64,000 bases of DNA from Pseudomonas sp. TH41 (lineage in GTDB: Bacteria; Pseudomonadota; Gammaproteobacteria; Pseudomonadales; Pseudomonadaceae): positions 330,001 through 394,000 of the forward strand of contig NZ_JAEKFH010000003.1 in the NCBI RefSeq assembly GCF_016650695.1, given 5' to 3'. Shown in pieces: positions 32,253 through 34,976 of this stretch. Each line of letters starts with the position of its first letter. The stretch's first letter is position 1. Under the pieces are notes generated by a model, which saw only the letters and a program-made list of their open reading frames with translations, made no database searches and was not told where the DNA came from. Made by a program: the position numbers and the translations under genes.

Positions 32253-32471
32253 TCAATCGTCATGCAGCAAACCGGAACTGTATTGGCTAAAGCTGCTGCC
32301 AAGCGCACTGCCATGGAAATTCATCTGGTTGGGGTTGTTGCTGTGGCTCGGAGTAAAGCCATCAGACGACTGGCAGTCTTCGCCATAACAGTCATGGGTG
32401 CTCGCCCCGGAACAGGCGCTCAACAGCAAAGCACCGGCGATGAGCGAGACTTTGATTATGTTTGAGATCAC
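32253..32471 (-). CDS. Small predicted lipoprotein
   Basis: A 72-residue protein with a lipoprotein signal peptide (M-I-S-N-I-I-K-V-S-L-I-A-G-A-L-L-L-S-A-C) and lipobox L-S-A-C at residues 17-20. The mature part is polar, Ser/Asn/His-rich with two further cysteines (H-D-C-Y-G-E-D-C). I recognise no family. AGGAATCTGAAAAGTG precedes its start on the minus strand. Confidence 0.65.
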   Translation of the reverse strand: MISNIIKVSLIAGALLLSACSGASTHDCYGEDCQSSDGFTPSHSNNPNQMNFHGSALGSSFSQYSSGLLHDD

Positions 32472-32745
32472 TTTTCAGATTCCTTTGGGGAAGACGCAGT
32501 GGCTTGGCTTTGTGATTTCATTCTAGTTCGTTGACCAGCCACCCATTATGAAACTTTGCTGAGTGACAGCGCTGGTTCAGGTACGGTGGTATCTCAAGTA
32601 AAAAGGACGCCTCTCAGGGTAATGCCGATCAGTTAAGCAAATTCAGCAGCAACACATACCTTGTAATTGGATGGACTCGCCCAAGCCGAGGCGTCAATGC
32701 GCCACGGTGGCAGTCTAAACAGCCAACGACAGCGAGGGCGAGTCC

Positions 32746-33849
32746 ATGAAAAATCATAGTTCGATTGATCAATCCCTGTCTTCTTCCGATTTGTCGGCCT
32801 GCACAACCTTAGCGGTCGATCTGGCCAAGCAGGTCTTTCAGGTTGCCGGTGAAGATGTCCTCGGTCAGGTGCGCTACGAGCAGCGGATCAAGTCGCGCGA
32901 GGCGTTTTATGAGTTTCTCCACAAGTTACCGCCTTATGTCGTGGTTTTGATGGAGACCGGTCCGGGTGCTCAAGCCTGGGCCCGGCAGTTGCAAGAACAA
33001 GGCAATCTGGCGCGGATTCTTCCAGCCGGTTTGGTGGCCACGCATCGCAGCGGGCCAAAAAATGATCGCAACGATGCGCTGGCGATTCTGCGGGCTGGTC
33101 GCGATGAAAAAATCTGCGCAGTACCGGTCAAAAGCGTCGCGGCGCTGGCAATGCAGGCGTTGCATCGCGCCCGTCAGGGCTATGTGCGTCGGCGCACGGC
33201 TGTCAGTAATCAGATGCGCGGCCTGCTGCTCGAGCACGGCGTGGCCTTGGCGCAGGGCGATGTTGCGATCAGCCAGAAAATTCCGCGGGTACTGGAAGAT
33301 GCTACCCAGCCGGTGCCGGGCCTGCTGCGTGAACTGATCGACGAACTGTTGGCCGAGTGGCGCCATTTGGGCGAGCGCATCAGCGTGCTGACGGGACGCC
33401 TGGAAGTGGCCGCCAACGCCGACATGACGGCGAAGCGACTGATGACTGTGCGCGGCATCGGCCCAGTCACGGCCACGGCACTGGTGGCCAAGGAAACCAA
33501 GCCTGAGCGATTCCCCAATGCCCGCAAGTTTGCCGCGTACTTTGGCATGGTGCCTGACCAGCACAGCAGCGGGGAGACGGTCCGGCTAGGGGATATGACC
33601 AAGCGAGGCGATGTTTATTTACGCAGCCTGATGATCCAGGGAGCCCATGCGGTGCTGCAACAACTACGACCTGATTCCCAGCAACCCGATGACCGCCGCT
33701 TGTTGCGCTGGATGAGCCGGCTGGGCCGTAAGGAGGCTGCGATCAGGCTAGCCAACCGCAACCTGCGAATCGTCTGGGTGCTTTTACAGAATGATCAGAC
33801 TTATCGTCGCCACGCTGGTGATGGCCAGCAAGCGACAATGAGCCACTGA
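32746..33849 (+). CDS. IS110-family transposase (DEDD recombinase)
   Basis: A 367-residue transposase. N-terminal RuvC-like DEDD domain: A-V-D-L-A-K-Q-V-F (first Asp), V-L-M-E-T-G-P-G (Glu), and K-N-D-R-N-D-A-L-A-I (Asp pair). The C-terminal transposase_20 domain has L-M-T-V-R-G-I-G-P-V-T-A-T-A-L and the F-A-A-Y-F-G-M-V-P-D-Q-H-S-S-G region with the conserved serine. Full length and undamaged, so the element may be active. Confidence 0.95.
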   Translation: MKNHSSIDQSLSSSDLSACTTLAVDLAKQVFQVAGEDVLGQVRYEQRIKSREAFYEFLHKLPPYVVVLMETGPGAQAWARQLQEQGNLARILPAGLVATHRSGPKNDRNDALAILRAGRDEKICAVPVKSVAALAMQALHRARQGYVRRRTAVSNQMRGLLLEHGVALAQGDVAISQKIPRVLEDATQPVPGLLRELIDELLAEWRHLGERISVLTGRLEVAANADMTAKRLMTVRGIGPVTATALVAKETKPERFPNARKFAAYFGMVPDQHSSGETVRLGDMTKRGDVYLRSLMIQGAHAVLQQLRPDSQQPDDRRLLRWMSRLGRKEAAIRLANRNLRIVWVLLQNDQTYRRHAGDGQQATMSH

Positions 33850-34087
33850 GCGAAAGAGTTCTGTCACCGAGGTACTAACTGTCCGACCCTTTGCTGAAAA
33901 AAATTGACCCCAGGTAAGACCGGCGTGGATTGATGCCTAAGCTGCTACTGGCCTTCGAGGCCTGACCGTAATCGGCATACCACGAGCTTTTCCAATTTTG
34001 GCCAGAAGCCGAAGACGGCTTCCACGAATAGGCCTGATACATAGATGCAACGGGGCGACGGTTTTTCAAAAGCGGGTAGACAGTGGG
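33850..34087 (+). ncRNA. Putative IS-encoded guide (bridge/seek) RNA region
   Basis: About 240 bp between the transposase stop and the right inverted repeat carry no gene. In IS1111-group elements this 3' non-coding end encodes the guide RNA that pairs with target and donor DNA, whereas IS110-group elements use the left end. Internal dyads such as CTGGCCTTCGAGGC-CTG near 33947 and GCCAGAAGCCGAAGACGGC near 34000 are visible. Exact RNA ends are not determinable by eye. Confidence 0.5.
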
Positions 34088-34102
34088 GGGCGAGTCCATA
34101 CA

Positions 34103-34135
34103 TAGCAGCTGGCGAAGCCTGCGTCCGGCTGCTAC
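34103..34135. repeat. REP sequence split by the IS
   Basis: TAGCAGCTGGCGAAGCCTGC and the following GTCCGGCTGCTAC make the right part of a REP whose first base (G of GTAGCAGC) is at the left flank of the IS at 32663. It differs in its arms from the REP-A and REP-B types elsewhere in the window. Confidence 0.75.
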
Positions 34136-34160
34136 GGATCGTGTTATGGCGCTTAAGAAT

Positions 34161-34976
34161 TCATAGAGGGTCTACAGGCTGCGAGGGAAACCAGTGCGTA
34201 TGAATTTGCTTGAGCACGCCGTTAGCCTTTATGCGTCGATAGCCTTCGTCATACATCGTCAGTGCCCGCAATCCGTCCGGGTGAGCCAGACTAAAGCCTA
34301 TGGTCGCGGTTGCCACCCCGCAATTGAAGGCAAATTGAACGGCATCTTCTGTGCCGGATTGTTTGGCCTTCTGTCTTTTTTCTTCCAGATTATTGGTCAC
34401 TATCAAGGCGGCAGATAAGCGCCGAGCAGCGAGTTTCTTAAGGTTCTGCACATCCGAGTCGGCGCTCTCGAATACCACCCCGGCAGACTGTAGCGCTGTA
34501 GCCTGGGGCGAATATTCGTAGCCTCTGACAGTGCCCACTACAGTGCCGGGCGGCAAGGTGCATGTGCCTTTCTGCGACTTCGGCAAGGGGGCTTTGGTCA
34601 GTTCGAAAATATCATTATTGACCGTGTAGATCGGTTGCGAGGCCAGTTTGATCTTGCCCTCGAATTCGGGCAGCCAACTCATATTGAAGCAGGCCACACT
34701 CGTGCCGTTGAGCACCAAGTACTTGCAACGGGCGTAGGGCACGACTTTGAGCTTCACTTCGACCGCCATTTCTTTGAAGGCGGCGACCACTACGTCGTTG
34801 GCGTAACCTGTGCCGTCATGCTCCGACCAAGGGGCGGCGGCATCCTCGACCATAATCGTCATCGTCTCGTGCGTCTCCAGTGCAGCGGCGGCGCTCGGAG
34901 CCAGCAGGTAGAGTGTGCACATCAGCAGCATCGGTTTGAACTGCCACATTCCGTGGTTAGACTTTTGTTGGTACAT
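34161..34976 (-). CDS. Solitary family-3-like periplasmic binding protein
   Basis: A 271-residue secreted protein. Signal peptide about 1-32 (M-L-L-M-C-T-L-Y-L-L-A-P-S-A-A-A-A-L-E), then the bac_3-type opening T-I-M-V-E-D-A-A-A-P-W-S and later G-T-V-R-G-Y-E-Y-S-P and Y-D-E-G-Y-R-R-I-K-A-N-G-V-L-K-Q-I. No transporter gene adjoins it. Such orphans often feed signalling proteins; a decayed chemotaxis receptor fragment lies next to it, but any link is speculative. Confidence 0.82.
   Translation of the reverse strand: MYQQKSNHGMWQFKPMLLMCTLYLLAPSAAAALETHETMTIMVEDAAAPWSEHDGTGYANDVVVAAFKEMAVEVKLKVVPYARCKYLVLNGTSVACFNMSWLPEFEGKIKLASQPIYTVNNDIFELTKAPLPKSQKGTCTLPPGTVVGTVRGYEYSPQATALQSAGVVFESADSDVQNLKKLAARRLSAALIVTNNLEEKRQKAKQSGTEDAVQFAFNCGVATATIGFSLAHPDGLRALTMYDEGYRRIKANGVLKQIHTHWFPSQPVDPL

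Follow-up and report, generated by a model that had tools for sequence, protein, structure and literature searches.

An IS1111-group insertion sequence at Pseudomonas REPs and relatives in which predicted guides vary together with target repeats

RNA-guided IS1111 elements, members of the group that target REPs and natural redirection from one target to another are all in print (PMC11187229, PMC11208160, PMC1525189), and the kind of element described here is therefore already known. As PMC11187229 portrays the family, the sub-terminal repeats usually measure 11-13 bp and are set off by a 7-bp extension on the left and a 3-bp extension on the right. The elements for which it describes a seekRNA (ISEc11, ISPa11, ISKpn4 and ISPst6) combine a DEDD plus PF02371 transposase with 12-bp repeats and 7/3-bp extensions, and their seekRNAs carry, in the 3' region, a complement of the top strand of the target followed by a match to its bottom strand. 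The same source gives a P. aeruginosa REP as the target of ISPa11 and reports natural redirection for the pairs ISEc11/ISXne4 and ISEc21/ISMch6. ISPpu9, ISPpu10, ISPa11 and ISRm19 are described as having all their copies at one REP position, with several copies per chromosome (PMC1525189, PMC8450116), and in the bridge RNA systems (IS621 and IS110 relatives) loops match both target and donor around a short core (PMC11208160). RNA-guided IS110/IS1111 recombinases are under development as genome-insertion tools, and their natural retargeting is little documented.

The element reported here lies in a 64,000-nucleotide stretch (the window) of the genome of Pseudomonas sp. TH41. It resembles the seekRNA elements in its transposase domains, in the length of its repeats and extensions and in the order of its predicted guide segments, the REP-specific elements in having several copies at one REP position, and the bridge RNA systems in having, around a short core, one predicted loop that fits the target and another that may fit the donor. 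In contrast to those systems, its predicted RNA is located in the right end, as PMC11208160 anticipates for IS1111 members, and the target guides follow the IS1111 order. There are also differences: the transposase, at 367 aa, is longer than the 330-350 aa that PMC11187229 states for the IS1111 family; insertion takes place after the first REP base (G|TA of GTAG), whereas ISPa11 is said by its describers to insert between bases 6 and 7 and ISPpu9 and ISPpu10 between bases 9 and 10, in a REP numbering that may differ from ours; and, in contrast to the IS1111 seekRNA elements, both RNA and movement are here predictions from sequence. What appears to be new, judging by sequence comparison, is a fine-grained series of natural retargeting, by 1-3 bases within a 9-nt guide, where the targets of ISEc11 and ISXne4 have only 3 of 13 bp in common (PMC11187229). 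No paper on guide alleles that follow REP classes was found among the open-licence PMC papers listed by our searches.

Anatomy of the element and its insertion site

The insertion sequence occupies positions 32664-34102 of the forward strand, 1439 bp with one copy of the TA core counted, as delimited by its repeats, its ends and comparison of copies. The left sub-terminal inverted repeat, ATGGACTCGCCC (32671-32682), begins 7 bp from the left end and matches at 12/12 positions the right repeat, GGGCGAGTCCAT (34088-34099), which stops 3 bp from the right end. The element holds a transposase gene (32746-33849), with 82 nt of non-coding sequence upstream, and a longer 3' non-coding region of 253 nt (33850-34102). 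The protein matches the family models PF01548 (DEDD_Tnp_IS110, E 4.7e-10) and PF02371 (Transposase_20, E 5e-24) as well as NCBIfam NF033542 (IS110 RNA-guided transposase, E 1.4e-82), carries the G--P----S(T)G motif of the IS1111 group as GMVPDQHSSG at residue 267, and among solved structures gives two weak C-terminal matches, ISCro4 and IS621. Domains, repeats, extensions and the longer 3' non-coding region, together with a single target used at a fixed position and in a fixed orientation by six of six copies in this genome, place the element in the IS1111 group. An earlier, sequence-only reading had made the same assignment, and its spacing of the repeats at 7 and 3 bp agrees with our coordinates; the non-coding 3' end, which it put at about 240 bp, measures 253 nt, and its right boundary at 34135 takes in the REP fragment beyond the true end at 34102. 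A scan of 32300-34600 against Rfam gave no match at E up to 1. A search of plasmid DNA with the element found no near match, and the transposase relatives on plasmids were all below 60% identity in the best 5000 records, with 41% the best among the matches listed.

At least six full-length copies, 99-100% identical, were found by a search of the TH41 genome. We take the element to be an intact insertion sequence that has probably been mobile recently. All six have the same orientation and read (N)TG-TAATTGG...CCATACA-TAGCAGCTGGCG(A/C)AGCCTGCG, and all are inserted at G|TA|GCAGCTGGCG, one base inside a REP; six full-length copies with the same junctions exclude chance. In the window, comparison of occupied copies with empty sites assigns the base to the left of the element (G, 32663) to the interrupted REP, the right part of which, TAGCAGCTGGCGAAGCCTGCG, resumes at 34103-34123. 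The left copy of the TA core (32664-32665) is ambiguous with 34103-34104, and the cut falls within or beside this shared dinucleotide; apart from that the insertion point is fixed, in keeping with its earlier placement to within two bases.

What the six copies have in common is the 5' edge of the REP. To the left of the core the flank is kept only as TG (CTTG, TGTG and four CCTG), the flanks beyond the REP differ among all six, and the other five diverge from the copy in the window downstream of GGCTGC or GGCT. The sequence-only reading placed the element inside a REP whose perfect GTAGCAGC/GCTGCTAC arms are rebuilt when the flanks are joined. Comparison of the other copies upholds the placement, with six of six in REPs and none outside; the rebuilt arms are seen for this copy and not for the other five. 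The genome contains 84 exact instances of the unoccupied form of the repeat, TGTAGCAGCTGGCGNAGCC, and none of the reversed control. Of these instances, 52 are arranged in a REPIN-like manner, as 26 inverted pairs whose starts lie 111-133 bp apart; for a looser right-hand form the number of matches is 118, occupied sites counted in. The Pseudomonas REPs tabulated in PMC2817692 start (T)GTAG or (T)GTGG, and some of the targets used by relatives of the element equal REPs of that table, for example TAGGAGCGGATTCATCCGCGAT at locus L041.

Two minor observations concern the surroundings of such sites. At L007 (C3:2702432-2702559 of the own genome) the left end of a related element survives by itself in degraded form (83% over 127 nt), and it is likewise preceded by CTG at a TA. 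A repeat, GGTAATGCCNNTCAGTTA, lies directly left of the insertion sequence at 32618-32635 of the window, recurs beside L007 and another locus (L003), and has an inverted partial copy beyond the REPIN L064, a placement that suggests REPINs nested inside another small repeat.

The predicted guide RNA and its covariation with targets

In the 3' region we predict a guide RNA of the seekRNA/bridge RNA type at 33906-34049 (144 nt modelled, ends approximate). Its candidate right target guide, AGCTGCTAC (33940-33948), is an exact 9-nt complement of G|TAGCAGCT, a match that, taken alone on this element, is only suggestive, given that a complement as long arises in 19 of 5000 dinucleotide shuffles. From 11 distinct sequences RNAalifold predicts two stem-loops, both interrupted by internal loops. 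The first consists of a stem (33933-33937/33974-33978) and a hairpin (33950-33953/33959-33962), with the right guide on the 5' side of its internal loop and CCGTA (33966-33970) on the 3' side; in a further stem underneath (33924-33928/33980-33984) both partners have changed in three pairs. The second stem-loop has GGCC/GGCC pairing and a GAAGC/GCTTC hairpin, which separate TCCAATT (33991-33997), the complement of the left end AATTGGA, from ATACATA (34037-34043), a sequence identical to the right end with the core added. In all, four pairs are doubly changed, giving 8 such cells where shuffling averages 2.3, and slid versions of the structure pair in 27-44% of cells against 99% for the actual structure, which was derived from the same alignment on which it was tested; 'further pair types' were not above shuffles (470 of 500). 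Single-sequence folding was no better than shuffles (z -0.82 for 144 nt, +0.63 for 253 nt), and folding energy was therefore set aside as evidence. The earlier proposal that folding 33850-34102 would reveal loops complementary to the flanks thus succeeds in so far as the loop is present in the comparative structure, while the energy of the single sequence is unremarkable.

The other segments can be assigned with less confidence. CCGTA, as a match to the bottom strand, would be the left target guide, but the assignment is weak: CCG faces flanks of CTG, TTG or GTG, with a mismatch at -2 in all six copies, and all of 68 left flanks have G at -1, and 60 of them have T at -2, irrespective of the guide. 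The seekRNA-type order, top-strand complement and then bottom-strand match, is accordingly found with a top-strand half made strong by covariation and a weak bottom-strand half. The loop that the sequence-only reading expected to match ...CCTTG and the right flank is borne out in its right half, AGCTGCTAC, which lies in a loop and covaries with the target; CCTTG, its left half, is poorly matched. The two donor guides are plausible candidates: 7-nt matches such as ATACATA and TCCAATT arise in 76 and 105 of 5000 shuffles, and in relatives there is one supporting double change (G104; G and L numbers are our handles for genomes and loci) and a poor fit of the left-end guide in G254 and G012. Two further candidates were rejected, namely GGCATACC (columns 69-76) as a donor guide, columns 75-77 of which covary with 21-23 as a stem, and GGCCTG as a left guide, which is part of the GGCC/GGCC hairpin and does not track the flanks.

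Relatives were collected from protein searches of 298 and 398 genus genomes, own genome counted (12 genomes at E<=1e-100 and 13 at E<=1e-80), from one scan of genome contigs (9 loci) and with a covariance model of the non-coding region, which matched 19 of 398 genus genomes, own included; across the order, the sole match of the RNA model was the own genome (1/390). The genome searches score a few best matches per genome, so copy counts are lower bounds. Where measured, the transposase is 72-97% identical to those of relatives, among them P. lini CC269 (97%), Pseudomonas sp. ERMR1:02 (96%), sp. BGI-2 (96%) and, in part, sp. Ant30-3 (94%). From 96 right-end rows we dropped 12 without a readable guide (one spurious L027 row, L129, L130 and L157-L165) and one duplicate right end (L044), leaving 83; L128, an eighth match in G136, was left out of the table. 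Position 1 was set to G where the left flank was absent from the locus, and the tally over positions 2-9 drops it.

Guides and flanks proved to agree closely. The complement of the guide is GTAGCAGCT in the own genome (at least six copies), G046 (at least one) and G336 (at least one, with C at position 1); GTAGGAGCT in G274 (at least 10), G098 and ERMR1:02 (at least six each) and P. lini, G229 and G242 (at least one each); GTAGGAGCC in G012 (at least seven), G181 (at least six) and G254 (at least five); GTAGGAGCG in G138 and G237 (at least six each), G104 (at least three) and G203 (at least two); GTAGGAGGG in G022 (at least five); and GTAAGAGCG in G263 (at least 10). The right flank equals this complement at all of positions 2-9 in 78 of 83 sites and at seven or more of these eight positions in 82 of 83 copies, and the match is 9/9 at 63 of the 68 sites with a known left flank. 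Because copies within one genome share a guide, we tested 18 genome units, 17 of which match; shuffled guides gave a mean of 4.2 and a maximum of 12, with none of 200,000 reaching 17. Guide and target covary at guide positions 4, 5, 8 and 9, and a tree of the non-coding region with the guide masked, in which only 4 of 15 inner branches are well supported, requires at least eight changes of guide type, three at position 5 and four at position 9. Palindromic repeats are the targets in 17 of 18 units, all but G263. The idea of a guide RNA is thus supported by comparison of sequences and not by folding energy. The comparison shows that among these relatives guides differing by 1-3 bases go with other REP classes or with another repeat; between the own element and those of P. 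lini or ERMR1:02, 96-97% alike, a single base of the 9-nt guide differs. That the change of guide causes the retargeting is what we infer from this pattern.

The match is incomplete at five of the 83 sites: L093, L047, L049 and L032 miss one base, and L044, after which comes part of an IS right end, misses four. (L035 and L044, at about 1790220-1793377 of G254 C1, are copies of the element separated by some 200 bp, and an additional right end of 73 bp comes after the second.) L032, in G046, combines a guide of the own type with the flank of a TAGGAGC REP, and comparison with G098 reveals a 58-bp gap in its transposase gene. For ISEc11 it has been published that donor flanks must match the guide for excision, so a freshly mutated copy should be stranded, and L032, with its older-type flank and broken transposase gene, may be a copy stranded by its own guide change. 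The one readable guide of G336 is predicted to mispair at position 1 because four left flanks in that genome end in G. In G136 there are 106 CTGTAGCAGC sites, yet 7/7 tabulated right flanks read TAGGAG, and the guide lies off the contigs. Short model matches in this genome (positions 80-143) were considered as a swapped target half and rejected: they end within a few bases of contig ends and so reflect assembly breaks.

In G263 each of the 10 tabulated copies is inserted in GTAAGAGC or GTAAAAGC, which belong to a different repeat, and the guide is altered to fit this non-REP-type target, although 684 CTGTAGGAGC sites are open there against 12 of CTGTAAGAGC, a number not above the control of 30. 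The earlier expectation of insertion always in a REP is accordingly borne out for the own copies (6/6) and fails for G263, where the element uses another repeat with a guide changed to fit. The G263 copies (L026, L038, L047, L102-L104, L137, L146-L148) share a repeat, CGCTGTAAGAGCGAAACC..., unlike the REPs used elsewhere, whose letters were not found in papers.

Supply of target sites and explanations for site choice

The own genome holds 1,094 CTGTAGGAGC sites (reversed control 52), 84 CTGTAGCAGC sites (59) and 14 CTGTAAGAGC sites (28); at 84 against 59 the 10-mer count is partly background, while the 19-mer count (84 against 0) is not. Despite the 1,094 CTGTAGGAGC sites, six of six own copies are in the rarer class, GTAGCAGC. 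Under random choice from both classes the odds of this are about 2 in 10 million, (90/1184)^6, a figure for which it should be borne in mind that two of the six left flanks are TTG or GTG and not CTG. The 64-kb window itself has 14 TGTAGGAGC edges and no intact TGTAGCAGC. The three genomes whose guide has the own-type base at position 5 contain 84, 123 and 88 CTGTAGCAGC sites; in each of the 13 genomes that carry another known guide and were counted, P. lini and ERMR1:02 not among them, the number is 4-20.

We consider it very probable that these observations are best explained by an IS1111-group element whose site is chosen by an RNA encoded in its own 3' region. The transposase, clear as to family and presumed active, would release a circular form of the element in which the ends meet as ATACA-TA-ATTGG or, with more of either end included, as CCATACA-TA-ATTGGATGG. 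A promoter predicted at this junction would transcribe the transposase gene together with the 3' non-coding region, and the putative guide RNA, the structure of which comparison supports, would hold two internal loops. The first loop would recognise the target, with AGCUGCUAC paired to the REP top strand G-TA-GCAGCU and a short, weak guide matching the TG on the left side of the TA core; the second would recognise the circle, through UCCAAUU at one of its ends and AUACAUA at the other. The element would then be inserted, by recombination at the TA core, one base inside the 5' GTAG of a REP and in one orientation.

Palindromic targets in all genome units but G263 might instead mean that the transposase protein itself recognises the REP, by sequence or as a hairpin, and that the match in the non-coding region is a by-product, for example a captured piece of REP. 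Transposase and guide do both diverge between genomes, and the first 9-nt match, at a few per thousand shuffles, could be chance; yet the own transposase is 95-97% identical to the proteins of G274, P. lini and ERMR1:02, which use GTAGGAGCT, and the one guide base that differs between the own element and these three is the complement of the sole target base, in nine positions, that differs as well. Guide and target moreover agree at four variable positions in 17 of 18 units, and the own element ignores the commoner GTAGGAGC REPs, all of which makes recognition by the protein very improbable in our estimate. We give hardly any credence to the idea that the agreement stems from one insertion per host which then spread with its flanks, by duplication or REP recombination. 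Several G274 copies do have a common left flank, CGCGGTCC, and a common right flank, meaning that not all copies are independent, but the six own copies have different flanks outside the REP, and the agreement holds between genomes taken as units, with at least eight guide changes on the tree.

We lean slightly towards the view that the guide follows the REP population of its host by point mutation, with REPIN ends as renewable landing sites. If so, a fixed part of the guide would pair with the GTA of the REP 5' GTAG while the rest drifts to match a class of repeat that the host contains, and each insertion would break the GTAG of a REP; G136, with TAGGAG flanks and 106 sites of the other kind, is a possible misfit. 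The natural series hints that guide type follows the REP repertoire of the host, and it suggests both the guide positions that are read (TA is fixed, and changes at 4, 5, 8 and 9 track the target) and how much mismatch between guide and target is tolerated.

Predicted junction promoter and transposase leader

When the two ends are joined, a -35-like TAGACA in the right end (34077-34082) is followed after 18 nt by a -10-like CATAAT that spans the junction and is present only in the joined ends. The joined form scores 9-11 of 12 consensus bases and the integrated form 7-9, with the joined form higher in 11 of 11 elements. This predicted circle junction promoter is in line with the junction promoters described in PMC11187229.

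As the sequence-only reading had noticed, the terminal repeat occurs a third time, as an exact 12-nt copy of the right repeat (GGGCGAGTCCAT, 32736-32747) that overlaps the transposase start codon. The first 127 nt of the element fold better than all 200 shuffles (z -3.37), and in the predicted leader hairpin this third copy pairs with the left sub-terminal repeat (32671-32682), forming a stem that contains or adjoins the start codon. Its exactness could be taken to mean that the third copy belongs to the junction promoter, as had been suggested, or is an alternative end of the element. We regard this as improbable: it has no evident part in a promoter whose predicted -35 and -10 are located in the right end and over the junction, it is not followed by ACATA as the right repeat is, and its sequence differs between relatives, whereas the right end, GGCGAGTCCATACA, is the same in 23 distinct aligned regions. 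Its pairing with the left repeat, in contrast, recurs in the predicted fold of every one of the 16 distinct leaders, even though the third copy varies (56 of 60 elements were used; L057, L058, L059 and L111 were set aside, as were elements under 1370 bp). The third copy is thus better read as part of an mRNA hairpin over the start codon, and by analogy this hairpin might serve as a translational lock comparable to the longer leader of ISPpu9. As PMC8450116 describes ISPpu9 and its RNAs Asr9 and Ssr9, that element likewise has a structured 5' leader, likely with the ribosome-binding site, and a sense RNA downstream of tnp; the leader before the start codon is 244 nt there and 82 nt here. The sense RNA of ISPpu9, Ssr9, is given in the same report as about 180 nt long and lies downstream of the transposase gene, where IS1111 guide RNAs lie, and by analogy it may be the guide RNA of ISPpu9.
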